Shown piece after piece: positions 1,297 through 21,885 of a stretch of 25,206 bases of DNA; the first letter of the stretch is position 1; every line of letters begins with the position of its first letter. The position numbers and the translations under genes are program-made. The stretch is taken from the IMG/VR virus record IMGVR_UViG_3300032293_000271, positions 1 to 25,206 of that record, one strand, 5' to 3'. The DNA is from a virus. Under the pieces are notes generated by a model that saw nothing but the letters and a program-made list of their open reading frames with translations, was not told where the DNA came from and did no database searches.

Positions 1297-1304
1297 TTTT
1301 ACTC

Positions 1305-1805
1305 CTATTCATATATTGTACCATTAAGTATCTCGCCACCGTCTAATATTTCTATATCTACTTGCTCATCAGGCTCAAGGGATGAAATATTTATAACAAG
1401 ATCTCCAGTGGTAGGGTCTATATACACTACCTCCCCGTTTGGACCTGTTCCATAACTTGGCAATTTTGACTCTAGTTTTATTGGAAAATTTTTGAAGTAT
1501 GTGTCTGAAGTACTTTCTACTCTAATTATATTATTTGGGTTGTACTGAAGATATAGTTGTTTAAGATTTTTTATAGGACTATAGATTACATCTTGTCCAT
1601 TAATAATATCATTTCTTGAAATATTTATTAACTCTTGCCCTCCAATATCCTCAAAAACTAGATCAAGCATCACTTCTGCATCTAGTTCTGGATTACTAAG
1701 AGAAAGCAGAGAGGGAGTTGCAGGCTTTGTTGGTTTATAAACTAAATTTAATTGATCTTTATGCTGCTGAGAAATAGACTGATTTGCTACTGCATCTGTT
1801 GCCAT
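1305..1805 (-). CDS. Small tail-tip protein of unknown function
   Basis: This protein has 166 residues. Its ATG overlaps the TAA stop of the large hub protein as TAATG, with GAGGT upstream, so it is probably translationally coupled. The N-terminus is polar and proline-containing. The central part (FEDIGGQELINISRNDI, residues about 50-68) and the acidic C-terminus (SSLEPDEQVDIEILDGGE) are predicted beta-rich, with no recognisable catalytic motif. Small proteins in this slot, between hub and fibre genes, are usually structural tail-tip parts. I assign it to the tail by position only. A fibre-attachment role is possible but unsupported. Confidence 0.65.
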   Translation of the reverse strand: MATDAVANQSISQQHKDQLNLVYKPTKPATPSLLSLSNPELDAEVMLDLVFEDIGGQELINISRNDIINGQDVIYSPIKNLKQLYLQYNPNNIIRVESTSDTYFKNFPIKLESKLPSYGTGPNGEVVYIDPTTGDLVINISSLEPDEQVDIEILDGGEILNGTIYE

Positions 1806-4800: not shown

Positions 4801-6085
4801 CTGGCAATCCACTAACTCCTAGATCAGAGGCACTTTTATTAATAGAAAACTCTAAGACCCTATCGCTTAAGTCTGATACAAGTCTTGGTGACAGTTCAAT
4901 TAAGTCAAATGTAGAATTAAATTTATTCATACTATCTACTACAATTCTTATTCCAGAAATATATTCAAATTCTTTATATTTTGTTTGATTATTTAGCGTA
5001 AATGCTGGGGGATTGGTTAAGTCTGTAACAAGGCTTGTAAGAGTTCCAACATTAGAATCTTCAAGACTCCATCCATAAGAAGGAACAAATGTTTTCCACT
5101 GACCCTTATACCAAATATAATATAAGCCCAAAGACATACTATTAGGAATAACTAAATAGGCTTCACCCTCTTGTGCTGTTTCTGGCTTTAATGTTTCTGA
5201 AGATAACTCTCCCATAAACTTAAATATATTAGAGTATATCTTTGGAACAGCAAGACCATAAGAAATTTCAACATACCCATCAGATCCGATGATTGCCTGT
5301 CCATCTTTTCTTCTGTCTCTATCAGAAAAAGATATTGCATCCACCCAACTGTTATTTTTTAATACTTGAATTTTCCAATTGTTTGGAGTTGTTCTGTTTG
5401 TTTCTCCATAGTATGGATCTAAAAATGTTTCATATGAGTTAGAGAATGTTCCGTAATCAAGTTCTCCTGTATTTGTTTGCATCTTTACTATAAGTCTGTT
5501 TGCTGGAACCTTTTCTTTGTATACAACAAATGGCGCTGTATCTTCTATCCTATGCTTTCCATTAATAGTTTTATTGGCAACTCCATACTCAGTACCGCTT
5601 TCTGTTCTAAAGGAGGTCCAATACTTGAACGGGTCATTTTTATCTGACATATAGTATCTTGGTCTTTTAGCCATATTAATATTTGGGTTATGCAAGTATC
5701 TTCCATTAAGATACGTTGCCTTGTTAATTCCAGATCTTGGTCTCTGATAGGTAAAGCAATCTTCTAAAGAGTAAAGCATTTTCATTTTTTCTTTAATTGG
5801 TTTTAGCGTGGTTGGATCTCCATCATCATCAAAACCTCCATCAATAATTACATCTGCATCCGTTGCACCCTTATAAAAATTACCAATATCATTTGCATCA
5901 AATGTATTTGGAAGCCCTGTATACTTTGCATCAGAAGTCTTTATAGATGTTGGCCTGTATCTATAGTTTCCTACCATAGATATATTTGTTGCAATATTCA
6001 TATTCCACTCAGCAATAACTGAAGACTTTGTTTTAACGGAAGAACTTGTTTCTATATAATCTAATAAATCTTTGTCTTGAAACAT
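1805..6085 (-). CDS. Large tail hub/tip (Tal-like) protein with lectin-like insertion
   Basis: This protein has 1426 residues when started at the ATG at 6085, which overlaps the previous stop as TAATG and has GGAAGAGG upstream. An in-frame ATG at 6118 would add 11 residues encoded inside the previous gene and lacks a better site. The N-terminal third has beta-rich segments, including a discoidin-like stretch near residues 195-250 (NNWKIQVLKNNSWVDAI). Residues about 370-600 (LSDRVLEFSINKSASDLGV; VSLLLDSIGF; SVAEVLEDIAISTQTAMFFD) resemble baseplate-hub folds of long-tailed phages. Residues about 930-1140 look like a concanavalin/LamG-type domain ending with VYDLSVEYQDIGKRRRFFLY, INNNLIAEVDDEDPLP and MALFVRG. 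The C-terminus (about 1344-1426, with PRKSVGVKIFANPMIQLGDIV) resembles the last domain of tail hub proteins. Order after tape measure and Dit-like genes supports a hub that closes the tube and contacts the cell surface. No peptidase or muramidase motif was seen. Confidence 0.7.
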   Translation of the reverse strand: MFQDKDLLDYIETSSSVKTKSSVIAEWNMNIATNISMVGNYRYRPTSIKTSDAKYTGLPNTFDANDIGNFYKGATDADVIIDGGFDDDGDPTTLKPIKEKMKMLYSLEDCFTYQRPRSGINKATYLNGRYLHNPNINMAKRPRYYMSDKNDPFKYWTSFRTESGTEYGVANKTINGKHRIEDTAPFVVYKEKVPANRLIVKMQTNTGELDYGTFSNSYETFLDPYYGETNRTTPNNWKIQVLKNNSWVDAISFSDRDRRKDGQAIIGSDGYVEISYGLAVPKIYSNIFKFMGELSSETLKPETAQEGEAYLVIPNSMSLGLYYIWYKGQWKTFVPSYGWSLEDSNVGTLTSLVTDLTNPPAFTLNNQTKYKEFEYISGIRIVVDSMNKFNSTFDLIELSPRLVSDLSDRVLEFSINKSASDLGVSGLPVGQLLASTGSISLFDFDDAFHSSNSSSIISKYVSKNIQIKLYEVITDNSGNEYYIPIKTMYSDGFPKLDNQSKQVSIDLRDLYFYFESKIAPQILLTNTSVSSAVSLLLDSIGFSNYVFKRVEGESEVIIPYFFIPPDKSVAEVLEDIAISTQTAMFFDEYNNFVMMSKDYIMPSVDQRPVDITLYGTTDFSDTGVIKNERTNNKLSNILEITSQDNEVYNDGKITYSVRSIERSVGTYKQASLVDNEKVWVYKPVLLWELGGSEGTKSVNQEVQNQSTYSLSAIPLNSNLSSVVPSVKNNVVVDNTLDLGEGVFFITRYTGYFYSNGEIIKYDAVQYNISGTGDVWINNVQEYEKYFSSLPFNGKIYPTGLVRIYSEPNYEEVYGVTKLKNGPVAKHGRGQFGTPVVEHFAGVSDYWSNNNNVRGCNMQSKYLFSLDETLPSTTVGAAGINNTLAQKTSRSGIIKNALSSKYIAESSINAMTSTTTGTVQSSALVMNGPGFTTTESPLDFVSYVYKELDNKYKHFGTRMRIVGKIENDGNFGQTSVGSSIYYTVPGTTPDKSISVVGGSGGLAVMINPSTNNGYYFEIIALGSNNLSDANQKNVNDVIFYKIKQKAETTEAIPVKLYEGLAGIIVDDGKFTGQYRMATEERPTVYDLSVEYQDIGKRRRFFLYINNNLIAEVDDEDPLPAYNNMALFVRGSSRVMFENIYALGNNYSQNTAFKLNAPIASAFGDSEINASQSFMKYAMSGVVQSTYLSGISSTEPNYFNMYFEEFGTIMREAASFNIKYDQAYPALYAKLSPTFNRLKGYVVSGFRAGSYGAEFLVFNATDTTLSLDSTSGNYLRIQGITFTQESNRDLTVDEYFSKNSNLSDPQLVQSSLIVSPFKIKKDYQDIKLSRMSYGKKDFILDVPYVQSQDAAEGLMSWVINKIMKPRKSVGVKIFANPMIQLGDIVNLDYVDNLINMVAPKTSRFVVYNIEYSKDQTGPSMTVFLSEVV

Positions 6086-6741
6086 TATGCCTCTTCCAGT
6101 GAAAGAGACACATTCCAAAAGTCAAAGTTCAATCCACTTCTTTTTACAACTGAATAGTTAAAGTTTGAAAAAAACACTTCTATAACTTCATTATACTTAT
6201 TAACATTGTTAAATCTATTATCAACCTGACTGCTATCTGTATCTTCAAAATTTGTGTACTTGTCATACGCAAGGTAAACCCAAAAGGATCCTTTGTGATT
6301 TTCATACCAATCAAGTAGTTCTACTCCTCCAGCACCACCATCTGTTGTAAACTCTAATGGGTTAGGCCTTGCTACTGTTGCCTGCATATCTGCTTTTCCG
6401 TTGGTATTAAAATTTGCCTTTGCATTGTATGCTCTGGATGGCAACATATCCCAAGATGCATTTATCTCTAATTTATCTGCAATGTGATATGACCTCATTC
6501 GGCCATTAATCATTCTCTCCCGTTTTTCAATTCTAGCAGAGTTAAAGTCTATCGCTGACCTATTATCATCAGAGAGGATTAAAAACTCGCCATTGGTGGC
6601 TGTAAAGGCCGTAGAGGACCCTACCTCGTTGCCATCTGGGATGTAAAAACCGTCAACCTTTGTGCCAGGATTGTCGGCAAAAAGCATTGCTTGAGGTCTA
6701 GAATATTTTTTTCTACCAGCCATATAAGTATTATTTGCCAT
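6085..6741 (-). CDS. Probable distal tail (Dit-like) protein
   Basis: This protein has 218 residues. Its ATG overlaps the tape-measure stop as TAATG, with AGGA four bases upstream. Its position directly after the tape measure and before the large hub is that of the distal tail protein in long-tailed phages of Gram-positive hosts. Visible features are a basic, flexible N-terminus (MANNTYMAGRKKYSRPQ), a central INGRMRSYHIADKLEINASW segment and a C-terminal beta-rich part (EVFFSNFNYSVVKRSGLN, then NVSLSLEEA) that looks like a strand ending of a Dit-type sandwich. The role is inferred: a ring between tail tube and hub. No enzyme motif is visible. It could equally be called a generic minor tail protein. 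Confidence 0.65.
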   Translation of the reverse strand: MANNTYMAGRKKYSRPQAMLFADNPGTKVDGFYIPDGNEVGSSTAFTATNGEFLILSDDNRSAIDFNSARIEKRERMINGRMRSYHIADKLEINASWDMLPSRAYNAKANFNTNGKADMQATVARPNPLEFTTDGGAGGVELLDWYENHKGSFWVYLAYDKYTNFEDTDSSQVDNRFNNVNKYNEVIEVFFSNFNYSVVKRSGLNFDFWNVSLSLEEA

Positions 6742-9700
6742 TAGATCCTAGCCCCCCTAATTCTTTGAGCATCTATGCTCTTTATTTGTACCATAACTGC
6801 TCTTGCAATTTCATCTGGATTAGCATCAGACTTTACATTTAAGTTAAGGTTATAATTATACACTGAATCCCCAACCGATGAGCCAGAATTTATAGACTTC
6901 ATATTGTCAACCCCATATTTATCTACAGCATACTTACTCATAACAAATTCTCCTGGAGTTAACATTGCAGGAACGGTATCTGTTCCAATAGCGTATCCAC
7001 CAGCAGCAAAGTAACTTGGAACTAGTCCTCCTCGTGATAGTGCTAACATGCTGCCTGAACCTCCACCTCCACGTCTAGGTTTAGGTTTAGGTGGCTGTGT
7101 TGTAATCTTTACGCTAGATAAATCTGGATCTGCTAATAAAAGACCTGCTGCTCCAGCAGAAGCACCAAAAAGTCCAAGAGTTAAAGGTTTTAGTGGATTA
7201 GTTGGTGTTGACAATGCAGGTGGTGTCCAGCCTGGGGATGTTCCTGCTACTGGCGGATTTTTTCCAAGTCCTAATAGCCAGTTGCCTGCATCATCCCAGT
7301 TCTGTGCTGCGTTTGGAGGAGTCGGCCAGGCATTCTTAGCCCAGGGGGTAGGCATCGGTAACGACATTTGTTGTCTTACTTTTATATCTGCTGCAGCCTG
7401 TGTCGCTGCAGGACCTGTAGTTTTTATGCTTTCTAGAATTAACTCTGTCTTCTTTGCAAGTTCTTCTCCGCCATATCCTGCAGCCTTTAGCATTTCTACA
7501 ATATCTTTTTCTTTTAATGTCTGTAAAAATTTTATTCCTTTATCCATCCCAGAGAAAAATGCCGAAGTTAATTCTGGATTTTTCCAAGCCTCGTTTGAAG
7601 AACCGTATGTATAAAATGGTCTTAGCATTTCGCTTACAAACGAGTCCACGGTTGGAGTAAATGGTTTCCAGTCTAAAACTCTTCCAAAATCTATAAGTCC
7701 TGGTTGAAGTGTTTCTGGATTAAGTGTTAAATTGCCATCGTGATCATCAAGAAACCTCATTGCAGCCTGAATTGCAGATCTGTATCCAGTTGAAGCGGCG
7801 ATGGCTGGGTCGGCCAATCTGTCAAATGATCCAGGAGAACCTGGAGCCTGCAATGCTAGTGACTTTAATGTGATTGCTCCTTGTGCTGCGACATCTGGGC
7901 TAAAAATTCCATTTGCTACTGTCTTTCCAGCACCAACTACTGGAATATTTTGCGGAGCAATAAGGTCTGCTGCTCTAGCAAACAAGGAACCAAAGATTTC
8001 TCTTTGAACCTCTGCAAAATCTAAACCAGTCTTATAAAATCCAGCAACTCCATCTAATGTTGCTCTAAATGTTGTATTTATTCCAGTTCCAACACCATCT
8101 GCTGCATTCGACTCAAGCATTTTACCAATCTGCAGGGCCTTTTGATCAATTTGTCCTGGAAGTTTAAATGCAGTTGCTTTGGCCAATAAGTTGGCTAAAC
8201 CAGGAAAGGTCTCAATTACTTTATCTTTTGTTTTCTTAACAAGTGCTCCTGCAACAGAAGCATAATATCCTGCATTTTTTGCTGATCTATTAAGATTCAA
8301 CTGTCCGTCTAACTCTGCTCTTGAAATTGCCAACACAGCATCCCAAAGGGGGTGTCCTTCTGTAATTGCATTTCTAGGATCATAGGGGAGTTTAGCAGTT
8401 CCAGCCTTCATCCAAGATTCTCCGCCAGCGTGGGTTCTTACATAGCCTGCGGCTTCTATTTTTGCAATGAGTGGTTTTGTTATTTTTTCTATCTTTGCTG
8501 CTAGTTTAGGATCTTGAATAAATCCCATCCTTGACTTTCCTGTTTGAAGTCCTTCTATAAAACTATTTTTTATATTATAGTTTGGATTTGCAGCAGGTAA
8601 GAAAAGTTCTTTTATTGGCTTAGTAACCTTAGAGCCTGCTGCTTTAATTGATCCAAAAATACTGTTTGAAACACGAGAGACTGGGGCAGCAATTGATTTA
8701 CTAAACATTGGACCAAGTTTTGATAAAAAGCCTGAAGTTTCTTTTACTGCTGGTGCTGCTACTTTTGACCCTTCTCCAAATACTTTTCCTACTCCAAGGA
8801 AGTTTAGTGGAAAGAATACACCCTCAAACTTATCGCCTGTAGTTCCTTGACCAGTAATAGTTTTTAAGAAACCAGTCAAGCCAAGAGCATCTCCAGGTAG
8901 CCAAGACGTAAGAGGAGATTTATCAAAGAATTCTTCTGTTTGTTTCTTGCTACCTTCTCTAGATCTAGCATATCTGGCCAACCAAGAATTGTTGTTAGCA
9001 CCTGTTTTAGAAGGATCTCTATCACCCTTGCCAAAGAATCGTGCTAGGCCTCCAAAGAATCCTCTAGACTCTTCAGGTGTTGCTGCAGGAGTAGTTGAAT
9101 ACTGTGGTGGGATAAACATACTTCCGTTGTATACTCCTGTGCCTGGGACTAATTGAGGCATTGCAGGAGCATTTCTTCCGTGTCTATGACCTACTGGTCC
9201 ACCCTTGTGATAGTAGCCAAGGTTCATTGCATCAAGATTTTCTACCCCGTACTTTTTGACTGCATCTTTTCTTAATACGTATTCTCCTGGAGTGAGCATA
9301 GCAGGGACAGTATCGGTTCCTGATGAATATCCTCCGCTAACAAACTTTTCAGGAATTATTCCACCCTTTGCTTTAAACTGAGGGCTTCCAGGGAACCTCT
9401 TATTCTGAAGCCTTGTTAGTTCGGCAAGATCTGTTGGATCAATATAAGCAAGACCGTCTTCAAAATGTGGATAACTATTGTATGTTCTGTTAGGGTCAGT
9501 TCTCCATGCAGATAGACGAGCATCTATTGCGTCTTGTGATTGCTGTCTTGCTGCTGCTGCAGCGACTTCTCTTGCCTTCGCTGCTGCTGCTGCTCTGGCC
9601 ATTTCTGCTGCCCATTGTTCATTGCCTGCTGCACGTTGAGCAGGAGAGGGTACAGTGACCCTCGGACGTAGACCACCTTCAAATATTGACTCAAGCCCAG

Positions 9701-12700
9701 ATGTTTTTAGCGCTTCTATAATTGCTAAGTTTATTGGTAGTGGCGTGTCTATAAAAGGCTTGTCTGGCATAATACCGCCAACTGCAGCCGAGTATGCCCT
9801 ACCTTCAGGAGTTCTATTGGATGAATGTTTTAATCTAGAGAATGATGAAGCGTATTCATTTAGCCATTTCATAATTCCTTGATCTTGATATGGTTTTTGT
9901 GTGAAGGCTCCACCAATAGATCCAGTAACTGAATCCCAAGTAAGATCTGCAACACGCTTACCAGTACCTATCTCAGTTACTTCGATTAGGTGTTGAGGTC
10001 CAAGTTTTTCGCTATAAGAGTTTGGGTCTGCTGCATAACTTTTAATGCTTTCAATAAGTCTACTTTCTGTAGGAAACCCACCTACTGGCCCTGGTCTAAA
10101 TCTGAATGCATATTCAATACCTGATTTTGGAGCAAAGAACGTGCCTGAATGCGGAACAAGAGCCTCTAGTTCTGCAAGGAGTGTTGAGTGTTTAGCACCT
10201 AATAATGATTCTATAGGAGTAAAGCCACCTTTTTGTGCTTGTTGTGTTGCGGTGGCATACGCTTTTTCCCACGCAGAAGGTTGTAGTCCCGTTTTTGATT
10301 TTATGTTTGCAATTAATTTAGGTAATGTAAAAGAATTTATTTTTGGAAGTTTTGATGATACCTGAGTCATTAAATTACTTTGTAAAATACCTGGAGCAAA
10401 CTTTTTAAGTCCCTGCCCAACAGCAGTTCCTCCAACATTAAACAGTGCTCCGTAACCCATGGATTTACCAACATCTTTTACAGATTGCCCAATTGACATA
10501 TTATCTAATTCTTTTTTAGGATCAAAACCTCGATGAACTGCTTTAGAGCCTTGTTTGTTTGCGTACTTTCCACCCTTAAGTCCATAGTCAGATCCCTCTC
10601 TAATTAATCCTGCTACTCCATCAATAAGACCAGTTCCAACTCCGAGCAGACCTCCCCATCCACCAACTGGAAGTCCAGTAAGACCGTGCTGTAAAGTGTT
10701 AAAGGCAACCCTTCCGAATGCTCTTGACCACTTTGCCCAGCCAGAACTATTTTGATTAGATCCGTGCTTTAATGAAAGTGATTTTTCAATTTCTTCCATA
10801 GTCTGGTATATTCCACCAGAGAGTGCGCCTACTCTCGATGATTTCACAAAACGATTGTTCCATATAGACTTTACAAGTCCTCCAAAATCATAATATCCAA
10901 CATTCATTGCGTCAAGATTATCTACTCCATATTTATCAACTGCAGACTTTCTTAATACATACTCTCCTGGGGTAAGCATTGCTGGGACTGTATCAGTACC
11001 CTTTGCAAAGGCCCCAGATTCAAAACCGCCTGGGACAAGTCCTCCTGAAGCAAGAGTTTGGAATGCACCGCTATTAACTCTACGTTTATTCTTTGGCTGT
11101 GAAGCAGCAACCAAGGATTTTTCTTCATCAGTTAGTGTTGCCCCGACAGTTAATTTTCTTAGCGCTAATGATAAAACAGCAAGTTTTCTATTTTCTTCTT
11201 GTTTATCTTCTCTTTCCTTTGCTATTCTTGCTTTATCGTCTTCTGATTGCGTTTCCCCCGTTTGAATAAGGCCTAGCGAAGTCTTTACAGAATCAGGCAT
11301 ATTCTTTTTATATGCATCCATCTGTCCATTGATTTTAGTCCAAACTGCATCTACTTTTCCTGCTGCTGTGACCAATCCTGCAAGTGCATCAGGATTATTT
11401 AAGGTTAACATTGCTGCTGCGTGGTAGTCAATTCCTGCATTGACCGTATCCCATGCCTCTCTTGTTTTTCCATAAACTGTAATGGCTGCTAGTTGTTTGT
11501 CAATACTGCGCTGTAATTCTCTATTATCCTCAACACGTGCATCAATCTTGGCTTGTATTCTCTCAACATCATTTTCTTCAATGTTATAGATTTTATCTTG
11601 CTTATCTTGAATATCTTTTAATATTTTAACTCTGTCTGGATTTGTTTCCATTGCATAAATCTTTTGAGAATTCTCGTATTGCTTTTTAGTTATTTGCTCT
11701 TGAGTTAAGCCACCTGGTCTGGCAGTCAAAGAGCCAAGTTCATTTTCTCTTGCTCTTTGTAAAGCATCACTTTGAGCAGAGGCAAACTTTTCAGCGCTGG
11801 CTGCTCTCATTTCTTGTACAGCACGGGCTGCTGCAGATATATCTCCAGATGTTATTGCATCTGCTAAATCAAGTTGTCTCTTTTGCTGATCTAATATTTC
11901 TGCATTAATCTCTTGAACTTTTGAAAGGGCTTCGGCTTGTTCATCATATCTTTTATTAACTTCTTCTGCAGCATTTGAAATAATTGCTAGATCATTAGAG
12001 TAAGCACTGTTCTCGTCTTCGAGTGCCTTTATAGCACGATCACCAAACAGTGGGTTCATTTCTAGTTGACGATTTAAGTCATTAACGTCTTCTGTTAGTC
12101 CTTGAATTTCTTTAGTAAACGGCTCAAGATCGGCTTCATAGCCAGATATTAGTCTATCATTTGCAATAATTTTATTTGCTTCTTCGCCAGTTCTTATCAA
12201 ACCTTCATACGCTGCAAACATCTCATCAACTATTTGTCTTCCTAGTTCTGCTCCTTCTTTTAAGTTACCCTTGTTTAATTGAACTTGAATATCAATTAGT
12301 TTCTTTGCTTCTATGTTATCTAGGTTTTCTGCAATATCTGCAGCGTCTAACTTTCCATCCTTCAAATCGTCCATCAAAATTTTTGCAAGTTGTGGGTCTC
12401 CAAGAACTTTATCAATCTGATCAGTGCCGTAGCCAAGGTCCTTCATCTGAGAAGCAAGTTTTGGCATGTCTTTGTATATTTCAAATTCTTCATTTTCACG
12501 AAGTATTTTGTTCAAAACTGCTTGACGTTCAAGATCTGTGTTAGCAGTCCGTATGTTCTTAATATATTTTTGCCAGTCAGGATCAGATGTGCTGATTGCC
12601 CCAGAAGCAATGGCTGCTGCCTGACCTTGTGTTGCTACAACCTCTAATGCCTGCGATGCTGTAAGGCCACTAGAGATTAGAATGTTATAGGCCTTAGTTT

Positions 12701-15700: not shown

Positions 15701-18700
15701 TATCTGGAACCGCTCCAGCACGTGGGGTGCCAGTATTGCCACGTGTTAATCTTTTTTCTCTTATTACTCTGTTGGTCTTTGGATCAATTGTTTGTTTAGT
15801 TTCAGTACCGTCAGGATTTATTAAAACTTCTCTTTCTAGAGGGGAAAGACTTCTATCTGTTCCGCTTCTAAGGTCAAAAGTTGTTGGAGTAGAATCATAA
15901 TATCCTGTACCAATTCTGTCATCAATAAGAGCCATAACTCCTTGAGACATTTGGGCTGGACCTAGTTTTGGAAAACTTTTTGGCTTTCTTCCTGCTGCTT
16001 GTTCTCTCTTTTGATATTCGTGTGCTATAAGATCAAGTTCTGCTGCTTTTCTAACCAACATTACTTCTCTTGCATTTGTTGGGTGTCCACCCTTTGACAT
16101 AAATTCAACAGCCTCAGAATAAATTCCAGCCTGACCTTGTGGAATAAATGGGAAGTTATTTTTTCTATTCCAGTCTAAAATTCTGCTGTGTCTCTTTGAA
16201 GCATTCATAAAATTATTTAATATTCTTAAATCGAACATGGCAGAACCTGATAACCATTTACCAGGACCTCTTCCAGGCTCTCCAGTTTTACTTATATGTG
16301 ATAACTCAGTTCTTAATTCATAGTCAATCTGTTTTGGCGTATACCCCAAAGCAGCAAGTCTTTCTCTTACTGACTTTAATGGATCGTTTTTGCCTGCTAT
16401 CTTATTTTGTTCTGTAAATGCTTTTTCTTCAGCATCTAAAACCTTATATAATTGTGAATCTCTAGGGACGCTACTTCTCCAGGATCCGCTTTGTTTTCCT
16501 ACAGGGCTCATCGCTCCTCTTAATCTAGAAACACCATTAATTTTTGCATCGCTTACAAAAGCCCCATCTTTTTGTCTTACACCCATTTGATAAAGAACTT
16601 TTTCTAGAACTTGATCATAAGTTTTTCCAGCATCAAGTCTTCCAGCATCTAAAGTTTTTTTATCATGGAAAAGTCCATCTTTATAAATCATCTCGTCGTC
16701 AACAAATTTAAGCATTCTGCTTTGATTTAAAAGATCATCTGCCCCACTAGTTCCTGCATTTAGTTTTTGTTTTGCAATTGCACTAAGAACTCTTTTTTGT
16801 TGTTCTTCGGAAAGTAAATTAAACTCTCTGGTAGCCTGTGCAGCAAGTGCTGCTCTAAGTTGTTCTATCTGTACTCTTGATTCTGGTACATTTTTAAATC
16901 TTTCAAAATCTCCAAGTTCAAGGTTTTTAATACCATCGCCTGCACGAGCATGTATTGGTTGAAGAGCAGCCCAATTTACTTTTGCCCCATCTTTAAGTCT
17001 TTGTAGCATATTGTTATAAACAATTTGTTCATCTGGCATTAGGTCCCAAGACCTTATTAATCTTTCTAATTTAGGAATAGCCTGATTAATTTCTGCTTTA
17101 ATTGCACCATCATATTGTGATGGAGTCATTGATGCTGCAATGCTAGATGTTTGTTGTGCAAAGAACTTCTTAGCACCGCCCTTTACTCCAAGAAGATTGA
17201 TCATTGCTTGCTGTTCCATACTTGGCATAGCCTTGGCAAACTCTCTAAATCCAGATGCTCTATCGTATACTCCAGAATTTCCAACATCTGCTACTATTCT
17301 TCCAGAGACGTTTGCTCTTTGCAGATCTTTATCTCCTCTCAAAGTTGAGGCAACTAATTGCTTAATCATGTCAGTCTTTGAGAATTGTCCATCCATTGCT
17401 GCAATTCGTGGATCGTAAGGTGATTCAAGAACTACAAATTTTCTTTTTCCTGTTGGATCAGTTGGATCCATCATTGTTCTTATTGTTTGTTTTGGAGTAA
17501 TCAGTCCTTCATGAATTTCTCTAGTAATTGTAGTCATACGCTCTTCTGCTAAAGCAGTGTCAGCATCTATTGTTGGTTTTACTACTACAATTTCTCCGTT
17601 AGGCTTTCTATATACCCCACCAATACCACGCTCAGGGAAACTGAAGCCTTTGAAACCTTTGAGTTTTGTTCCAAAGTCGGTTGGTTCAAGTGAGCCAAAT
17701 CTTCCAGATTTTACACGGTCAGATATTCTATCTAATATTTCTCTAGACTGTGCTGCTTTGGCTGCTGAAATTGGCATTCCAACAAAGACTGCTCCAGACT
17801 GTCTTTCTTCATGTGGAATTACAAGTGGTTCTGATTTAGCACCTTTTACTTTTGCTACTACCTTTGGAACTCTTCCAGCCATAAATCCTGGAACCTGATC
17901 TTTAAATATTGCGCTAATCAAACCTTTATATTTTTCAGTAGTCTTGGCTGGAATTACCGCTTCTCCTGGAGCAAGCATTGCTGGCTGAATATCTCCTGCA
18001 CCCTTTGGTCCTGGAACACTTAAAATTCCATCTCTAAATTTTCTAACTGGAGGCAACTTGCTTACTGCTCTTTTTGCTCCTCCCATACCGCCAGCAAATA
18101 ATGCAGGATTTTGAGAAGCCATCGCTCTCATTTGTGTGCTTAAAGAATTATAAGATGAAGCAAGAGCATTAACAGAGTTTGCCTCAACATTGAAAACCTC
18201 AATCAGTCTTGTGTGTGTCTGATGTAACTGTTGAGAAGATGCGGCATTTTCAATCTGCTCTTGTGTCATGTAATTAAAGCCTGCGCCCATTACGGTTGTC
18301 TGTCCGTTTAATCTAGCAATTCCATTACGAAGTTTTGAGAATAACTTAATTCCATTTGCAATTGCATTCATTACAAGACCAAATGTCATCAATACTACTG
18401 GCCCAAGTCCTGCAACTACTCCAACAATAACCGCAACAACTTTTTTAGTCTGATCGCTAAGCCCATTAAACTTTTCAAATAGGTTACCAAAAAATTTAAC
18501 CACTGGAGTTAAGGCCTCAAGGAATACCTTTCCTAGTGGCATAATGTCTTGCTTAAATTGTTCTACCGCTGCTTGAAACTTAACTCCAACTGAATCTTCA
18601 ATTTTCTTCATTTCTCGCTCAGAAAGTATTGCTAACTCTTCTACTGAAGATCCTGCTAAACTAAGTGCTCTAGATGCTTGAGTTCCATCTTTTGTAACAT

Positions 18701-20093
18701 TTTGGAAAAGTGTTGATAGGCGAGAGAACTGGAACTTACCGAACATCTGCTCGATTGCACGGGCACGGTTGAGTGGATCTAAAGTGTCAAGTGCATCTGC
18801 AAAACCAATTACTGTTGCTTTAATGTCTCCTTGATTTCCTTCTACAATACCCTTTATGTTAATTCCTAATCCTGCAAGCATTTTAGATGCTTTATCGGAT
18901 GGGTTAATTAAAGATGCAAGACCAGACTTTAGTGCGTTAGCACCTTCAGAGGCATTGATTCCACCTTCCTTCATTGCTGTTAAGAAAAATGCTAAATCTT
19001 CTACAGATCCTCCAAGTTGTTTAACCACTGGGGCAGCCTTTGGAATTGCAATTGTTAAATCTTCAATAGAAAGAAGTGTCTGGTTTTCAACTGCGTTAAG
19101 AAAGTCAATCTTTTTAGCCAGTTCTTCACTTGAAATACCAAATGCGCTCTGTAGAGATATGGTTGTTTCAAGTGCTTGTTGTTGTTCTATTTGTCCAAGT
19201 ACTGCTAACTTTGTTGCTGTTTCAACCTGAGCATTCAATGCACCGCCAGTAAAACCTGCAGCAGCAGCAGTCGCTGCCATTTCAACTGTCTTTGTTACAG
19301 CAACGCCATACTTGGTGTACTCATTTGCTAATTTTCTAATATTATCTACTGCTATATCTGTTTCTGCGTCATTAGTAAAAGCATCACCATATACACGCTT
19401 AAACTTTACAATTTCTTTTTCAAGGTCTCTAAATGTCTTTGCTGCCATACCACCAAATAAAGCAAGTGGCATTGTAAGGCCAACCATCAACTGACGACCA
19501 GCCCATTGAGTATTCTTACCAAAGTTTAGGAGTTGTGTTGATCCTTGTTTTAATAATTGGTTCAGGAACTGCTGTCTTTGTGCAGCGTATTGAATTCTTG
19601 TTCCAAGTTCAGTAAACTTTCCACTAGCCATTTGAAGGCTTTTTGGCATAATCCGAATAGCATCCATAAAGCCAGCGTTGGCCTTATTCATTTGGATATA
19701 TTGTGCCTGTAGTGCCTTTACTCTGTCTCTGCGAGCACGATTTATAATTTCTCGTTCTTGTGCAAAGGCCCTGCCTAAAACACGTGTATTGGCAGTTGCT
19801 GCTGCCATGGTATATCTAAAGTACTCACGAAGAGAGAGTTTGTTTTTTTCTAGTGCAGCCGTAAATGCTAATGTACTTCCTGCAACTTTAACTTGACTTG
19901 CAGAGAACTTTCCCGTAGCACCAACAGATTGAAGCAGTTGTGCATTTAAACCTTTTTGAGCATTTGCAGCAGCCAGGTTGCCCTCAGCAAGAGACTGATG
20001 AAACTTACTGAGGCCTGCCTGAAGAGAACGAAGTTGTGCAAGAGCGGCAGCCGTATTAAAATTAATATTTATATTAGAGTTTACATCTGCCAC
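6741..20093 (-). CDS. Giant tape measure protein (4450 aa) with embedded enzyme-like domains
   Basis: This protein sets tail length and fills the tail tube. It starts at GTG 20093, preceded by AAGAGGTG about nine bases upstream. Residues 1-210 are helical. Residues about 215-545 match the core of TP901-type tape measures (FRDLEKEIVKFKRVYGDAF, long alanine-rich helices). Residues 548-575 are a hydrophobic, membrane-capable segment. A basic disordered linker (about 1440-1500), an Arg/Glu/Ala coiled coil (about 1542-1643) and a second hydrophobic region (about 1647-1710) follow, then long helical stretches to about 2990. Further hydrophobic segments lie near 3130-3165 and 4300-4327. Three enzyme-like domains (about 810-965, 3312-3440, 3990-4215) and four PAML-x-PGE elements (residues 700, 3032, 3592, 4370) are listed separately. 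The frame is intact throughout. The tape measure assignment is secure; the embedded enzyme domains are my inference. Confidence 0.95.
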   Translation of the reverse strand: MADVNSNININFNTAAALAQLRSLQAGLSKFHQSLAEGNLAAANAQKGLNAQLLQSVGATGKFSASQVKVAGSTLAFTAALEKNKLSLREYFRYTMAAATANTRVLGRAFAQEREIINRARRDRVKALQAQYIQMNKANAGFMDAIRIMPKSLQMASGKFTELGTRIQYAAQRQQFLNQLLKQGSTQLLNFGKNTQWAGRQLMVGLTMPLALFGGMAAKTFRDLEKEIVKFKRVYGDAFTNDAETDIAVDNIRKLANEYTKYGVAVTKTVEMAATAAAAGFTGGALNAQVETATKLAVLGQIEQQQALETTISLQSAFGISSEELAKKIDFLNAVENQTLLSIEDLTIAIPKAAPVVKQLGGSVEDLAFFLTAMKEGGINASEGANALKSGLASLINPSDKASKMLAGLGINIKGIVEGNQGDIKATVIGFADALDTLDPLNRARAIEQMFGKFQFSRLSTLFQNVTKDGTQASRALSLAGSSVEELAILSEREMKKIEDSVGVKFQAAVEQFKQDIMPLGKVFLEALTPVVKFFGNLFEKFNGLSDQTKKVVAVIVGVVAGLGPVVLMTFGLVMNAIANGIKLFSKLRNGIARLNGQTTVMGAGFNYMTQEQIENAASSQQLHQTHTRLIEVFNVEANSVNALASSYNSLSTQMRAMASQNPALFAGGMGGAKRAVSKLPPVRKFRDGILSVPGPKGAGDIQPAMLAPGEAVIPAKTTEKYKGLISAIFKDQVPGFMAGRVPKVVAKVKGAKSEPLVIPHEERQSGAVFVGMPISAAKAAQSREILDRISDRVKSGRFGSLEPTDFGTKLKGFKGFSFPERGIGGVYRKPNGEIVVVKPTIDADTALAEERMTTITREIHEGLITPKQTIRTMMDPTDPTGKRKFVVLESPYDPRIAAMDGQFSKTDMIKQLVASTLRGDKDLQRANVSGRIVADVGNSGVYDRASGFREFAKAMPSMEQQAMINLLGVKGGAKKFFAQQTSSIAASMTPSQYDGAIKAEINQAIPKLERLIRSWDLMPDEQIVYNNMLQRLKDGAKVNWAALQPIHARAGDGIKNLELGDFERFKNVPESRVQIEQLRAALAAQATREFNLLSEEQQKRVLSAIAKQKLNAGTSGADDLLNQSRMLKFVDDEMIYKDGLFHDKKTLDAGRLDAGKTYDQVLEKVLYQMGVRQKDGAFVSDAKINGVSRLRGAMSPVGKQSGSWRSSVPRDSQLYKVLDAEEKAFTEQNKIAGKNDPLKSVRERLAALGYTPKQIDYELRTELSHISKTGEPGRGPGKWLSGSAMFDLRILNNFMNASKRHSRILDWNRKNNFPFIPQGQAGIYSEAVEFMSKGGHPTNAREVMLVRKAAELDLIAHEYQKREQAAGRKPKSFPKLGPAQMSQGVMALIDDRIGTGYYDSTPTTFDLRSGTDRSLSPLEREVLINPDGTETKQTIDPKTNRVIREKRLTRGNTGTPRAGAVPDSGSRKDSRTETLRGNERVVTQRQRRQSRQAPNSRGFRSFRMPGMVNGDPTATLSPVERLKFERFKQTHPDLNESQLQDILRRKLKHERDIAKAKEKEAAAARKAAKRAELLPKQQAEETRRQTAEARKRYLEEQRRMELNRQQALNYDAAVKEGQRRELQAIKAKQKEATRNRRMLRQEKVGRVSGGAAMALGTAGMGLMMAGQQGAGMAVMGASAVAGMAPMLTNPYVAAGVAVTAVAAGLWMLERQSNKTAKAQSQFVDATSATTGKMKAIGEMNSKVGASEIYAEKRSKGAADRYTTGFDRGKQQYGVTFLEGKVGKDIMSGFTKSMASGTDTAAQQMALQLAGYISDGVMSAEQAHSVAAQIGINLNNQSLTAQISGQLLELVGPGGEDLLKNPLEVRIRLVEEQKGVGTVLKNELETSMSDRSFSTDTVLSELSKYLTPGLGGLRMASLIPGVDAGFVEYSAMEMFTETKGEAQASAGAASGVQSLEFSQAQIDSLNAQYDKDKKILETKKAATKDAAKRKEIEGQISELETRRLNGVAQLRQGNSDILTQQVELFQVAQKRGAVENAFFDSLKEQVRLKAEETGQGDFADAFLKSSADLESKVLEVKIDTIVGSGMMPVATATTLLSMFAGDEDGLETFIDVTTQLQDPGQVTQLINSLGGIEGTVGKELLLEIGSRNPEEANRLMSTIALMQKMAGKEINFQAFFKDEGAIARLNTLQGELEAIEEIKGPITRDVIANLEQNKEAGMPDMSGLLDLWDQWEGLDDEVKKTVIQEYITLLRTITPEQVGSYVMGQAQAAGNLGGAAVLDYYTNEDGTYTPEAKVKATADLVMQSKEEMELMKKFGLLGNNSGGGGKKDNPLAFLDSLAMGLKQVRDGAFNALTPLESLLAVFTNKKTQKDAFNLFDGIQNRLLKKGVGEELRGAIESMSAEDFDKIAKLEGKKALFTFAKGKPKSKATITGLTESGKAVDQGYKEKALGSFNFANEETIKNVQDQTKAYNILISSGLTASQALEVVATQGQAAAIASGAISTSDPDWQKYIKNIRTANTDLERQAVLNKILRENEEFEIYKDMPKLASQMKDLGYGTDQIDKVLGDPQLAKILMDDLKDGKLDAADIAENLDNIEAKKLIDIQVQLNKGNLKEGAELGRQIVDEMFAAYEGLIRTGEEANKIIANDRLISGYEADLEPFTKEIQGLTEDVNDLNRQLEMNPLFGDRAIKALEDENSAYSNDLAIISNAAEEVNKRYDEQAEALSKVQEINAEILDQQKRQLDLADAITSGDISAAARAVQEMRAASAEKFASAQSDALQRARENELGSLTARPGGLTQEQITKKQYENSQKIYAMETNPDRVKILKDIQDKQDKIYNIEENDVERIQAKIDARVEDNRELQRSIDKQLAAITVYGKTREAWDTVNAGIDYHAAAMLTLNNPDALAGLVTAAGKVDAVWTKINGQMDAYKKNMPDSVKTSLGLIQTGETQSEDDKARIAKEREDKQEENRKLAVLSLALRKLTVGATLTDEEKSLVAASQPKNKRRVNSGAFQTLASGGLVPGGFESGAFAKGTDTVPAMLTPGEYVLRKSAVDKYGVDNLDAMNVGYYDFGGLVKSIWNNRFVKSSRVGALSGGIYQTMEEIEKSLSLKHGSNQNSSGWAKWSRAFGRVAFNTLQHGLTGLPVGGWGGLLGVGTGLIDGVAGLIREGSDYGLKGGKYANKQGSKAVHRGFDPKKELDNMSIGQSVKDVGKSMGYGALFNVGGTAVGQGLKKFAPGILQSNLMTQVSSKLPKINSFTLPKLIANIKSKTGLQPSAWEKAYATATQQAQKGGFTPIESLLGAKHSTLLAELEALVPHSGTFFAPKSGIEYAFRFRPGPVGGFPTESRLIESIKSYAADPNSYSEKLGPQHLIEVTEIGTGKRVADLTWDSVTGSIGGAFTQKPYQDQGIMKWLNEYASSFSRLKHSSNRTPEGRAYSAAVGGIMPDKPFIDTPLPINLAIIEALKTSGLESIFEGGLRPRVTVPSPAQRAAGNEQWAAEMARAAAAAKAREVAAAAARQQSQDAIDARLSAWRTDPNRTYNSYPHFEDGLAYIDPTDLAELTRLQNKRFPGSPQFKAKGGIIPEKFVSGGYSSGTDTVPAMLTPGEYVLRKDAVKKYGVENLDAMNLGYYHKGGPVGHRHGRNAPAMPQLVPGTGVYNGSMFIPPQYSTTPAATPEESRGFFGGLARFFGKGDRDPSKTGANNNSWLARYARSREGSKKQTEEFFDKSPLTSWLPGDALGLTGFLKTITGQGTTGDKFEGVFFPLNFLGVGKVFGEGSKVAAPAVKETSGFLSKLGPMFSKSIAAPVSRVSNSIFGSIKAAGSKVTKPIKELFLPAANPNYNIKNSFIEGLQTGKSRMGFIQDPKLAAKIEKITKPLIAKIEAAGYVRTHAGGESWMKAGTAKLPYDPRNAITEGHPLWDAVLAISRAELDGQLNLNRSAKNAGYYASVAGALVKKTKDKVIETFPGLANLLAKATAFKLPGQIDQKALQIGKMLESNAADGVGTGINTTFRATLDGVAGFYKTGLDFAEVQREIFGSLFARAADLIAPQNIPVVGAGKTVANGIFSPDVAAQGAITLKSLALQAPGSPGSFDRLADPAIAASTGYRSAIQAAMRFLDDHDGNLTLNPETLQPGLIDFGRVLDWKPFTPTVDSFVSEMLRPFYTYGSSNEAWKNPELTSAFFSGMDKGIKFLQTLKEKDIVEMLKAAGYGGEELAKKTELILESIKTTGPAATQAAADIKVRQQMSLPMPTPWAKNAWPTPPNAAQNWDDAGNWLLGLGKNPPVAGTSPGWTPPALSTPTNPLKPLTLGLFGASAGAAGLLLADPDLSSVKITTQPPKPKPRRGGGGSGSMLALSRGGLVPSYFAAGGYAIGTDTVPAMLTPGEFVMSKYAVDKYGVDNMKSINSGSSVGDSVYNYNLNLNVKSDANPDEIARAVMVQIKSIDAQRIRGARI
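6891..6986 (-). repeat. PAML-PGE element, copy 4 (tape measure residues 4370-4401)
   Basis: This is the C-terminal copy of a repeated protein element: GTDTVPAMLTPGEFVMSKYA, then a VDKYGVDNM segment. It is preceded by GGLVPSYFAAGGYA. It lies after the HD-GN/DFG kinase-like domain, and a serine-rich tail follows. Elements like this are seen in many phage tape measures, and their function is unknown to me. Confidence 0.85.
7449..8126 (-). other. HipA/PI4K/FAM20-type kinase-like domain inside the tape measure (residues about 3990-4215)
   Basis: Residues run in the order expected of this kinase superfamily. A beta hairpin reads NTTFRATLDGVAGFYKTG, with candidate ATP-binding Lys4021. It is followed by a helix with acidic residues (AEVQREIFGSLFARAADL) and an IPVVGAG segment like the proline-containing strand of bacterial PI4K-like kinases. 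The catalytic loop is FLDDHDGNLTLN (D4116 to N4121, spacing D-x4-N), and LIDFGR follows with metal-binding Asp4135. All key residues are present, so the domain could be active. The family is inferred from motif order only. Substrate and even kinase activity are unknown. It lies between PAML-PGE copies 3 and 4. Confidence 0.6.
9225..9320 (-). repeat. PAML-PGE element, copy 3 (tape measure residues 3592-3623)
   Basis: This copy reads GTDTVPAMLTPGEYVLRKDA, then VKKYGVENLDAMNLGYY. It is preceded by GGIIPEKFVSGGYSS. It is almost identical in protein to copy 2 but has many synonymous DNA differences, so it is either an old duplication or one under selection. It separates the GNAT-like segment from the C-terminal kinase-like segment. 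Confidence 0.9.
9774..10160 (-). other. GNAT-acyltransferase-like domain inside the tape measure (residues about 3312-3440)
   Basis: The segment has a GNAT-like order. IEVTEIGTGKRVADLTWD reads as paired strands. A strand and acyl-CoA-loop candidate AFTQKPYQDQGIMKWLNEYA follows, with Q3403-D-Q-G3406 in the Q/R-x-x-G-x-G/A position and Met in place of the final small residue. Then comes LKHSSNRTPEGRAYSAAVGG, with His3423. The HS-x-x-RT-x-x-G-x-A...VGG ending is one I associate with phage-encoded GNAT-like proteins. The imperfect loop leaves open a binding-only or degenerate domain. Confidence 0.5.
10905..11000 (-). repeat. PAML-PGE element, copy 2 (tape measure residues 3032-3063)
   Basis: This copy reads GTDTVPAMLTPGEYVLRKSA, then VDKYGVDNLDAMNVGYY. 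It is preceded by GGLVPGGFESGAFAK. It opens the C-terminal third of the tape measure, after the long helical region, and precedes the segment holding the GNAT-like domain. Confidence 0.9.
14965..15470 (-). other. Coiled coil followed by hydrophobic segment in the tape measure (residues about 1542-1710)
   Basis: Residues about 1542-1643 form a highly charged Glu/Arg/Lys/Gln/Ala helix expected to be a coiled coil. It runs straight into a Gly/Ala/Met/Val-rich stretch (AMALGTAGMGLMMAGQQGAG onward to AAGVAVTAVAAGLWML) long enough for two membrane helices. Hydrophobic segments in tape measures are thought to enter the host membrane during genome delivery. A membrane-channel role here is inferred. 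Confidence 0.65.
17199..17666 (-). other. Kinase-fold candidate in the N-terminal part of the tape measure (residues about 810-965)
   Basis: GIGGVYRKPNGEIVVVKP resembles a nucleotide-binding hairpin followed by a strand carrying Lys839. An AEER...REIHEGL helix supplies an acidic partner. A hinge-like KFVVLESPYDP comes next, then LRGDKDLQRANVSG (D923 to N928, spacing D-x4-N) and IVADVGNSG, where Asp936 would replace the DFG aspartate. The order matches HipA/PI4K-like kinases, but the loop lacks the usual His and the glycine-rich loop is weak. It could be a diverged or inactive kinase, or another fold. It follows PAML-PGE copy 1. Confidence 0.4.
17943..17996 (-). repeat. PAML-PGE element, copy 1 (tape measure residues 700-717)
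   Basis: This diverged copy reads GDIQPAMLAPGEAVIPAKTT. It is preceded by a short basic and glycine-containing lead (FRDGILSVPGPKGAG). It keeps the PAML-x-PGE core but lacks the KYGV-DNLDAMN tail of copies 2-4. It sits between the TP901 core with its membrane segment and the first kinase-fold candidate. Confidence 0.75.
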
Positions 20094-20117: not shown

Positions 20118-20459
20118 TTATTTGTTTATTACATTATTTAATGCTAGTGAGTCAGAATTTTGAAGTCCTGATGCTGCATCAATAATTTGATAAACAGTTG
20201 GAAGGTCTAGAAGATCTTCTAGCACTTCTCTGTCTTCTGCCAATTCTGGCTTGAATTGCTTTAGTGCAATTTGTGCACAATCAATAAGGATATCCATTGA
20301 CTTGTCATTATCTTCTGATGCCTCTTGTAGCAAGGCAAACTTAGTCATAAAAGGTCTAAGCAATGACAACTTAAGTGGTCTTACTGAGATTTCTGTTCCA
20401 TCCATTAGTGTAATGGTCTTGCCGTTTGTAGTCTTTGTTGTTGAAGGCTTATCAGCCAT
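20118..20459 (-). CDS. Second tail assembly chaperone, G-like domain only
   Basis: This protein has 113 residues. The ATG at 20459 follows AAGGAGGA, a strong Shine-Dalgarno, and its own extended -10 promoter lies just upstream. The protein is a clear paralogue of the N-terminal half of the preceding gene. They share the DGTE motif (residues 20-23 here), PLK, C-A-x-IA-x-x-Q, LED and D-L-P-T-V-Y (85-90), with only a two-residue spacing change between DGTE and PT. It lacks the C-terminal T-like domain. By analogy with lambda gpG, it should coat the tape measure before tube assembly. Its stop lies 24 bases before the tape measure start, which is the expected position. No slippery sequence leading into a long extension is visible. 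Confidence 0.8.
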   Translation of the reverse strand: MADKPSTTKTTNGKTITLMDGTEISVRPLKLSLLRPFMTKFALLQEASEDNDKSMDILIDCAQIALKQFKPELAEDREVLEDLLDLPTVYQIIDAASGLQNSDSLALNNVINK

Positions 20460-20511: not shown

Positions 20512-21192
20512 TTAATCTATTTTCTCGTAAGATAGGCCCATTCCAATTCCAAACCCTGCCTTTTCTGCATTAATTCCTTGCAATGCCAAAATATCTTTAG
20601 AGTTTGCTGCTTGTCCTCCGCTAAATACTCTGGCCTTCATTTCTTCCCAAGCATCTTGCTTTCCACTTGACTTATCTAAATCAACACCTTGCATTGCAGC
20701 AAGAAATTTTTTATTAGAGTAATCAAGATCTCTCTTAATCTTAAGAGTGGCCATAATCTCTGGCATTGACATAGATGATTCTAGTTCGTCATAATCTTTC
20801 CAGATTCCCAGCAAAAATACCTCAGACTCAATCTCTGCTAAATCAAGTTCATCCCAGGTTGATCCACTATCTGTAGCCTGAGTCTTTACTGGCTCTTCAG
20901 ATTTTTCATTTATTTTAATTCCTGCAGAATAATCTAAAAGTTTATATATTGTCGGCATATCAATATTATCTTCTAATTGCTCTTGGGTTTTTATGCTTGG
21001 ACAATACTGCCTCATTGCAATTGTAGCGCATCGGCATAAATAGTCTATTGCCTCTTCATCATTTTTTGCTGCCTTTACATTTTCAAACTCTTCTAAAAAC
21101 AACTTTAAGTATTTTATTTTTAATGGAGTTATGTATAGTTCTGTTCCATCAAAGAGTTCTATAATTGAGGTTTTGTATATTTCTGTAGGCAT
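20512..21192 (-). CDS. Tail assembly chaperone with G-like and T-like domains, probably leaderless
   Basis: This protein has 226 residues from MPTEIYKTS. The N-terminal half (DGTE at 15-18, PLK, C-R-C-A-T-IAM-R-Q, D-M-P-T-I-Y at 78-83) is paralogous to the next gene. The C-terminal half (residues about 105-226; EVFLLGIWKDYDELE, SMSMPEIMATLKIKRDLDYS, KKFLAAMQGVDLD) looks like the T-like part of phage tail assembly chaperones. The protein therefore corresponds to a GT fusion made without frameshifting. An in-frame ATG at 21222 would begin inside the terminator hairpin, and I reject it. The chosen ATG at 21192 has no Shine-Dalgarno but lies exactly six bases after a TGGTATACT element, which suggests a leaderless mRNA. 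The gene follows the tail tube gene and precedes the tape measure. Confidence 0.8.
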   Translation of the reverse strand: MPTEIYKTSIIELFDGTELYITPLKIKYLKLFLEEFENVKAAKNDEEAIDYLCRCATIAMRQYCPSIKTQEQLEDNIDMPTIYKLLDYSAGIKINEKSEEPVKTQATDSGSTWDELDLAEIESEVFLLGIWKDYDELESSMSMPEIMATLKIKRDLDYSNKKFLAAMQGVDLDKSSGKQDAWEEMKARVFSGGQAANSKDILALQGINAEKAGFGIGMGLSYEKID

Positions 21193-21198
21193 TATATA

Positions 21199-21207
21199 AG
21201 TATACCA
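21199..21207 (-). promoter_or_regulatory. Extended -10 promoter placing transcription start at the chaperone ATG
   Basis: TGGTATACT matches the extended -10 pattern with one change in the hexamer (C for A). Its last base is seven bases upstream of the A of the ATG at 21192, so initiation at the usual distance would start the mRNA on or next to the start codon. There is no recognisable -35. The lack of any Shine-Dalgarno supports it. This is predicted only. Confidence 0.55.
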
Positions 21208-21214
21208 AAGAGAA

Positions 21215-21240
21215 AGGCCCAATCCCGAAGGATTGAGCCT
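21215..21240 (-). terminator. Rho-independent terminator after the tail tube gene
   Basis: On the transcribed strand an 11-bp stem (AGGCTCAATCC paired with GGATTGGGCCT, with one T-G wobble) closes a TTCG tetraloop. The pyrimidine-rich TTCTCTTT follows. It lies 18 bases after the tail tube stop and just before the chaperone promoter. The U-tract is interrupted, so some read-through is possible. Confidence 0.85.
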
Positions 21241-21258: not shown

Positions 21259-21885
21259 TTATGATGCTGCTGGGATGGTACGATCTACGATCTTACCGTA
21301 TGATGCGTCATCATTTGGAAGAAGACGGAATGATACTTCGAACATTGTCGCTTCGTCTCTCTTTGCAGATACTGTTACGCTTTCAATTGAAAGTGCACGG
21401 TATGCTACGTAAACTCTTTCGAGTTGGTCTGATGCTGCACACTCGCCAGTACCTGGACCAACTGCAACCAAACCACGCTCGACAGGGCATTCGCCGATGT
21501 CTCCTGCTGAAAGATTAAGTGTTGGGTTTCCTGCTACTGTTGATAGATCATCATCCTTACCTGCTAGTGCAAATAGAAGATTCTCTAGTGTTGATTCTGC
21601 GAATGTAGTATTTAGGTTTACCTGCATGCCTTGCTTGAACAACTTAGCAACGTCAAGAACCTGATCTACTGCAACCTCACCAAAATCAGGCTGGAACTGA
21701 ATTTCCAAACCATTCATTGTGTATCCAACATTGCGGAAGTCTGCATCATCTGACAAAGTTGTCTTGTATGATACATCCTCTGTGTATGCTGGAAGTGCTG
21801 CTTCTGTGAGTACGCCTGCTTCATGTGTGAAGAGGGCTGCTGCTCCAACAATAATATTGTTGCTGCTACCACGTGTATATGCCAT
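21259..21885 (-). CDS. Probable major tail (tube) protein
   Basis: This protein has 208 residues. The ATG follows GAGGTG by seven bases. It lies between the tail terminator and the tail assembly chaperones, the usual site of the tube gene. Its size fits a tube subunit. The sequence is soluble and beta-rich, starting MAYTRGSSNNIIVGAAALFT and ending with EVSFRLLPNDDASYGKIVD, like tube proteins that need a flexible N-terminus and a C-terminal strand. Two cysteines (in GECPVERG and GTGECAAS) flank a short loop. The DNA is less AT-rich than that of the tail-tip genes, as often seen in highly expressed structural genes. It has its own extended -10 promoter and a strong terminator, so it can be transcribed at a different level from its neighbours. 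I infer the function from position and length. Confidence 0.8.
   Translation of the reverse strand: MAYTRGSSNNIIVGAAALFTHEAGVLTEAALPAYTEDVSYKTTLSDDADFRNVGYTMNGLEIQFQPDFGEVAVDQVLDVAKLFKQGMQVNLNTTFAESTLENLLFALAGKDDDLSTVAGNPTLNLSAGDIGECPVERGLVAVGPGTGECAASDQLERVYVAYRALSIESVTVSAKRDEATMFEVSFRLLPNDDASYGKIVDRTIPAAS

Follow-up and report, generated by a model that had tools for sequence, protein, structure and literature searches.

Tape measure proteins (TMPs) occupy the lumen of the tail tube, exit at ejection and are regarded as rulers that also aid DNA passage across the envelope. Phage-delivered effectors are known on head proteins (MuF, portal) and as polyvalent proteins, in reports none of which mentions tape measures (PMC5512222, PMC5576092, PMC9503650). 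As for TMPs, ManZ, a protein of the inner membrane, labels that of lambda during injection, and TMPs are probably bound by the defence protein SNIPE (PMC13190303); the T5 TMP pb2 is cleaved beside its muralytic domain, which parts the enzymatic domain from the remainder (PMC10038345). Here, we describe the computational analysis of a 25,206-base virus record, IMG/VR IMGVR_UViG_3300032293_000271 (the window, meaning the whole stretch analysed), in which a single open reading frame on the minus strand (6741-20093, GTG start) encodes a TMP of 4450 amino acids (aa). This TMP has two domains with a predicted kinase fold and invariant catalytic residues, which we call N-type and C-type, and the C-type domain lies in a slot with exchanged content.

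The protein is a TMP both by its core domain and by the position of its gene, which follows that of the tail assembly chaperone and precedes the genes for the distal tail. The Pfam family PhageMin_Tail matches it at aa 254-452 (E 4.4e-27), and several tape-measure families of PHROGs do so as well, the best being PHROG 10030 at 1.1e-92. The closest relatives of its core, as found by tblastn, are TMPs of Streptomyces phages.

A first-pass annotation of this DNA had proposed a kinase-like domain with intact catalytic motifs inside the TMP; our analysis confirms the motifs and supports the kinase reading. In the translation, GFYKTG with Lys4021 (starting at 4018), IPVV (4050), FLDDHDGN with D4116 and N4121 (4114), and LIDFG with D4135 (4133) all lie where they had been placed, with the codons of D4116, N4121 and D4135 at 7746-7748, 7731-7733 and 7689-7691. 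The interval originally given, 7449-8126, corresponds exactly to residues 3990-4215 on the minus strand and clips both domain ends slightly, aa 3978-4236 being a better fit to the conserved block. We aligned 10 distinct C-type sequences, the relatives coming from IMG/VR, with 27-63% identity to the window. All ten rows keep K4021, E4032, D4116, N4121 and D4135, and also H4118, while nine keep the glycine of the DFG motif. All five catalytic positions fall within the 32 invariant columns out of 282, with a chance of ~1.4e-5; this hypergeometric figure, like the one for the N-type domain below, is a rough count that ignores phylogeny.

An AlphaFold model of the C-type domain, built from the family alignment, shows a kinase fold (predicted local distance difference test, pLDDT, 80.2; predicted template modelling score, pTM, 0.79), its poorly predicted part being the first 40 residues. 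Its C-lobe consists of helices (132-148 and 185-279), and the structural alignments cover most of the length of complete kinases. When compared with the PDB using Foldseek, the top match is CtkA (E 1.7e-5, prob 1.00), followed by PI3K, PI4K, PRPK and HipA, while VIA-align ranks CtkA (Z 14.7, root-mean-square deviation 5.0 over 232), actin-fragmin kinase (13.0) and PI4K-II (12.8). All the PDB matches listed are kinases, including PRPK/Bud32 and HipA, with RNase L matched via its kinase-like domain, and the TM-scores are modest (~0.4-0.5), as can be expected for a distant relative. In a PDB profile search, the counterpart of DDHDGN...LIDFG in PI4KB is DRHNGN...HIDFG, in a match that is not significant (E ~1). 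The layout originally suggested, that of HipA/PI4K/FAM20-type kinases, stands for PI4K and HipA, both of which are among the structural matches; FAM20 does not appear among the matches listed for the C-type model. The two findings that would have refuted the first-pass annotation by its own terms, a model without the two-lobed kinase fold and homologues in which K4021, D4116, N4121 and D4135 vary, did not materialise. Fold and motifs support the prediction that the C-type domain is an atypical kinase of the CtkA/PI4K/HipA branch, and the call rests on them because none of the profile collections Pfam, NCBIfam and PHROGs assigns the domain to a family. Structural matches to the same model in BFVD include A0A6B9L6W7, A0A6J5S481, A0A6J5MJB0 and A0A4D6E245. 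These BFVD matches come from phages, and their annotations are ADP-ribosyltransferase, HK97 portal and PI3/4-kinase, so that other virion proteins may also carry C-type-like kinases.

The N-type domain, which the first-pass annotation had overlooked, was found as a conserved block when the whole TMP was compared with its relatives. Scanning IMG/VR for it identified 190 stretches that encode the domain, 80 of which were kept. All five of its catalytic residues are invariant in 44 rows (chance ~6e-6), and G938 is kept in 43 of them. The AlphaFold model, again from the family alignment, shows a two-lobed fold, with a pLDDT of 89.8 and a pTM of 0.85. VIA-align matches it to Bacillus cereus CotH kinase (Z 12.0), CtkA (10.7), PI4K-IIalpha (10.5) and LepB (9.8), with Golgi casein kinase (4kqb, 9.7) and HipT (9.1) further down, and nearly all the PDB matches listed are kinases. 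Since Foldseek alone is weak for this model (best E 9.3e-4), the assignment leans on VIA-align and the motifs. A recognisable TMP core is present in 64 of the 67 distinct N-type proteins, the other three being cut at the N-terminus by the contig end; these 67 proteins were gathered via the domain itself, and their number is not a measure of its frequency in the wider clade. The N-type domain is thus a fixed part of the TMPs sampled, and it is far more widespread than the C-type domain. Because a profile comparison of the two domains gave a match with a probability of 4% (E 0.0095, over part of the N-lobe), we do not claim their common descent inside the TMP.

Scans of both domains with Pfam, PHROGs, NCBIfam and PADLOC gave no significant family. 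The profile search against the PI3K/PI4K and HipA families envisaged in the first-pass annotation was negative in the window, both for PF00454 (PI3_PI4_kinase), whose best score was 12.1 bits in the related record L006 against a cut-off of 27.1, and for PF07804 (HipA_C), which gave no match there. PF03109 (ABC1) has no match in the window either, its best score being 14.8 bits in L006 against a cut-off of 22.9. The lack of a Pfam match above threshold could be taken to mean that the resemblance is due to chance and that there is no kinase, which we consider highly improbable in view of the confident models and kinase-dominated PDB lists obtained for both domains, and of the order and conservation of the motifs. 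A different question is chemistry, which fold matches do not reveal. The kinase superfamily includes non-phosphotransferases such as SelO and SidJ, and SidJ appears low in the N-type structural list. The two domains might therefore be real kinase-fold enzymes, delivered as we propose below, that catalyze another transfer reaction such as AMPylation or glutamylation. However, both keep the canonical K/E/D-x4-N/D set and their best structural matches are phosphotransferases, which makes such a chemistry unlikely.

Three diverged direct 129-nucleotide (nt) repeats, 61-75% alike, encode GTDTVPAMLTPGEYV-type motifs (...DTVPAMLTPGE...) and frame two cassettes near the C-terminal end of the TMP (Table 1). 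A motif of this type frames the slot in many relatives too, and the repeats are a likely substrate for recombination. Two pairs of relatives illustrate how the slot varies. The alignment of L033, which has a C-type kinase, with L050 covers 1-3300 and 4038-4126, and L050 lacks anything in between, so that its slot is empty. Between the same L033 and L069, 1-3508 (79%) and the final 89 residues (93%) are shared, while the kinase stretch differs, being partly replaced in L069. We also compared the whole TMP of the window with that of its nearest relative, L017. Amino acid identity is 100% in the TMP core and 50-73% in the C-terminal cassettes and tail, and synonymous divergence (dS) climbs from 0.05 in the core to 0.24 in the ruler and 0.46-1.04 in the cassettes (0.49-1.04 for the kinase cassette), a rise that suggests recombination as the means of exchange. 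The C-type kinase thus sits in an exchangeable slot that is empty or otherwise filled in relatives, and would therefore be dispensable cargo, outside the ruler function.

These comparisons bear on whether the kinases might instead act in the phage-producing cell, phosphorylating for example tail proteins or the TMP itself during assembly, with no effector role in the new host. An assembly or structural role predicts a domain that is fixed in the TMP clade, as the N-type domain is. We nevertheless view this as rather unlikely, since the C-type domain is missing or replaced in close relatives, and is thus not generally needed for assembly, and since neither domain is significantly matched in the related TMPs of Streptomyces phages. 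Elsewhere, the TMP of Gordonia phage Hedwig gave only a weak tblastn match (E 0.8), over the stretch preceding the catalytic loop, and a scan of GTDB genomes found no N-type relative. In all these comparisons, sequence counts are not counts of independent events, and IMG/VR entries are fragmentary and of limited completeness.

The slot holds other domains as well. Cassettes in L040 (L040:10747-13224) encode an OmpA domain (Pfam E 1.1e-12), and by eye the same stretch also shows a HEILH zinc-peptidase-like motif. Other readings made by eye found no confirmation in Pfam and PDB profile searches and are leads only: zinc-peptidase-like for other cassettes, and ADP-ribosyltransferase-like for YRGLS segments (L026, L069) and for GPGLY/GPGTY segments (L020, L030, L031, L052, L059, L040, L015). 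Cassette 1 of the window matched no family in Pfam or PHROG scans, and a GNAT-acetyltransferase-like reading of part of it (9654-10106 on the minus strand, aa ~3330-3480), again by eye and confirmed by no profile, is likewise a lead. In the TMP of L015 (L015:2834-16504), two C-type domains accompany a single N-type domain, which makes three kinase-like domains in all; the N-type one is displaced to aa ~2830-3120. In one of its C-type domains (L015:9971-10828), the C-terminal helices (residues ~244-283) look helix-turn-helix-like, with weak matches to HTH_23 and phage repressors.

The gene order of the window, in which the probable gene for the major tail protein is followed by two at the chaperone position, the TMP gene and tail genes, recurs in Tomas, Francob and BillNye. 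These Streptomyces phages have TMPs of ~2100 aa, versus 4450 aa in the window. Outside this block, 24565-25044 on the minus strand encodes a short protein with a repetitive N-terminal half rich in Pro, Ala, Val and Glu.

Table 1. Features of the TMP and its neighbouring genes, in coordinates of the window.
Feature	Position	Strand	Basis
Major tail protein (probable)	21259..21885	-	Gene order as in L097-L099
Tail assembly chaperone (probable)	20512..21222	-	Gene order as in L097/L098
Short gene at tail assembly chaperone position ahead of TMP	20118..20459	-	Gene order as in L097/L098
Conserved TMP core, aa 1-660	18114..20093	-	tblastn to annotated TMPs of Streptomyces and Gordonia phages, best E ~1e-56
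Degenerate upstream copy of ...PAMLAPGEAV... motif, ~aa 690-735	17889..18026	-	Translation; likewise at ~aa 707 in most relatives
N-type kinase-like domain (predicted), aa 776-1075 (core 802-1049)	16869..17768	-	44-row alignment; AlphaFold; PDB structure matches
K839, candidate beta-3 lysine	17577..17579	-	K in 44/44
E850, candidate alpha-C glutamate	17544..17546	-	E in 44/44
D923-x4-N928 catalytic loop and D936-x-G, N-type	17286..17327	-	D, N, D in 44/44
129-nt repeat copy 1, GTDTVPAMLTPGEYVLRKSAVDKYG, aa ~3033	10872..11000	-	Repeat search; motif positions
Cassette 1, between repeats 1 and 2	9321..10871	-	Boundaries are the repeats; GNAT-like by eye only
129-nt repeat copy 2, aa ~3593	9192..9320	-	Repeat search
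Cassette 2, between repeats 2 and 3, holding the C-type kinase	6987..9191	-	Boundaries are the repeats
C-type kinase-like domain (predicted), aa 3978-4236	7386..8162	-	10-row alignment; AlphaFold model; PDB structure matches
K4021, candidate beta-3 lysine (GFYK)	8031..8033	-	K in 10/10
E4032, candidate alpha-C glutamate (QREIFGS)	7998..8000	-	E in 10/10
D4116-x4-N4121 catalytic loop (DDHDGN) and I-D4135-F-G metal-binding motif	7689..7748	-	Alignment
129-nt repeat copy 3, ahead of C-terminal tail, aa ~4371	6858..6986	-	Repeat search
Tail gene immediately 3' of TMP	6085..6741	-	Gene order as in Streptomyces phage Tomas; Tomas product shorter

The host is likely to be actinobacterial, because the best relatives of the TMP core infect Streptomyces and because WhiB, which is to our knowledge confined to Actinobacteria and their phages, is matched in related records. 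Nine of the 12 long related records have such a match, above cut-off in eight (L069, L077, L031, L061, L090, L052, L084, and L006).

The reading that we favour, with moderate confidence, is that this TMP is both a ruler and a carrier of enzymatic cargo, and that its kinases work inside the host, probably an actinobacterium, from the time of ejection. The computation shows the TMP, the two predicted kinase folds, their invariant catalytic residues and the slot with its exchange, and from these we infer the delivery, activity and ATP use, targets and benefit of the kinases as follows. In this layout, a normal N-terminal TMP core is directly followed by a permanent predicted atypical kinase (N-type), a long variable ruler and a C-terminal exchangeable slot, framed by the ...DTVPAMLTPGE... 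repeats and carrying here a second predicted atypical kinase (C-type). These domains would travel in the tail tube, either unfolded or compactly packed. The C-terminal end of siphophage TMPs lies near the tail tip, and that end would be the first out at ejection. The domains would then refold in, or next to, the inner surface of the host membrane, a site supplied with ATP; since a kinase requires ATP, the cytoplasmic face of this membrane is the likeliest site of action. There, the kinases might phosphorylate host molecules, which would favour the start of infection or block a defence, and a role in entry itself is conceivable for the fixed N-type kinase. Candidate substrates would be protein targets like those of HipA and, more speculatively, phosphatidylinositol. 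Actinobacteria are among the few bacteria with phosphatidylinositol in their membranes, which makes it conceivable that host lipids are modified, and one PI4K-like domain could do so at the entry site. The suggestion in the first-pass annotation that the C-type domain is an injected effector is in line with this proposal and draws indirect support from the exchangeable slot.

Four points weigh against this proposal: 1) neither domain is recognised above cut-off by any of the curated sequence families searched, 2) the collection of isolate (cultured) phages holds no recognisable N-type or C-type copy, 3) a folded domain of ~30 kDa exceeds the lumen width of a typical siphophage tube, so that unfolding or an unusual location would be required, and 4) the C-type domain is under only mild constraint, with a ratio of nonsynonymous to synonymous divergence (dN/dS) of 0.54 between the window and L017. 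This last value, together with the fact that TMPs tolerate large insertions, would suit inactive relics or folded spacers, i.e., pseudokinases that provide bulk or aid membrane insertion. Relics would lose their catalytic residues, however, whereas all five are unchanged across the diverse sequences aligned, 44 for the N-type and 10 for the C-type domain, and we judge the pseudokinase explanation to be quite unlikely. Beyond the delivery of kinases that we favour for the window, we put forward more tentatively, as a possibility that may well prove wrong, that a clade of probable actinobacteriophages has turned the TMP into a modular injector of cytoplasmic effectors. Each member seen would combine a fixed CotH/PI4K-like kinase with a repeat-framed slot for kinases and other domains, the content of which is perhaps selected by host defences.

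A kinase in a TMP was not reported in the literature we searched, which comprised the open PMC literature and few subscription journals or preprints. What is new here is the TMP as a carrier, the presence of two predicted kinase domains within one ruler protein and the repeat-framed slot. If our proposal is true, siphophages would have a route for effector delivery comparable to that proposed for head-packaged MuF and polyvalent proteins, except that it is tail-borne and operates ahead of or with the DNA, and defences that watch TMPs, such as SNIPE, would face a protein possibly bearing a counter-measure. The exchangeable slot opens the idea to testing, through comparison of related phages that have a cassette with others that lack it.

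Among known kinases, CtkA, PI4K, HipA and CotH share the predicted fold and the order of catalytic residues with the domains described here, from which they differ by an identity of ~8-19% in structural alignments and by the lack of a significant sequence-profile match. The polyvalent proteins of phages and conjugative elements (Iyer et al. 2017, PMC5512222) are similar in being very large and multidomain, in being thought to enter with the DNA, and in their kinase, ADP-ribosyltransferase and GNAT cargo, for which cassette exchange was proposed. In contrast to these, the carrier is here a TMP and the C-type model is two-lobed, of the PI4K/CtkA/HipA branch; polyvalent kinases are defined by the loss of the whole C-terminal subdomain, while our model retains its C-lobe. 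The MuF polymorphic toxins (PMC5576092) are also virion structural proteins with exchangeable C-terminal enzymatic domains and proposed delivery with the DNA, but their carrier is a portal-adjacent head protein instead of a TMP, and the words "kinase" and "tape measure" are absent from that paper. T5 pb2 and the muralytic TMPs similarly have an enzymatic domain inside the TMP that is used at the cell envelope. Muralytic domains cut the cell wall, whereas a kinase needs ATP and would be expected to act in the cytoplasm.
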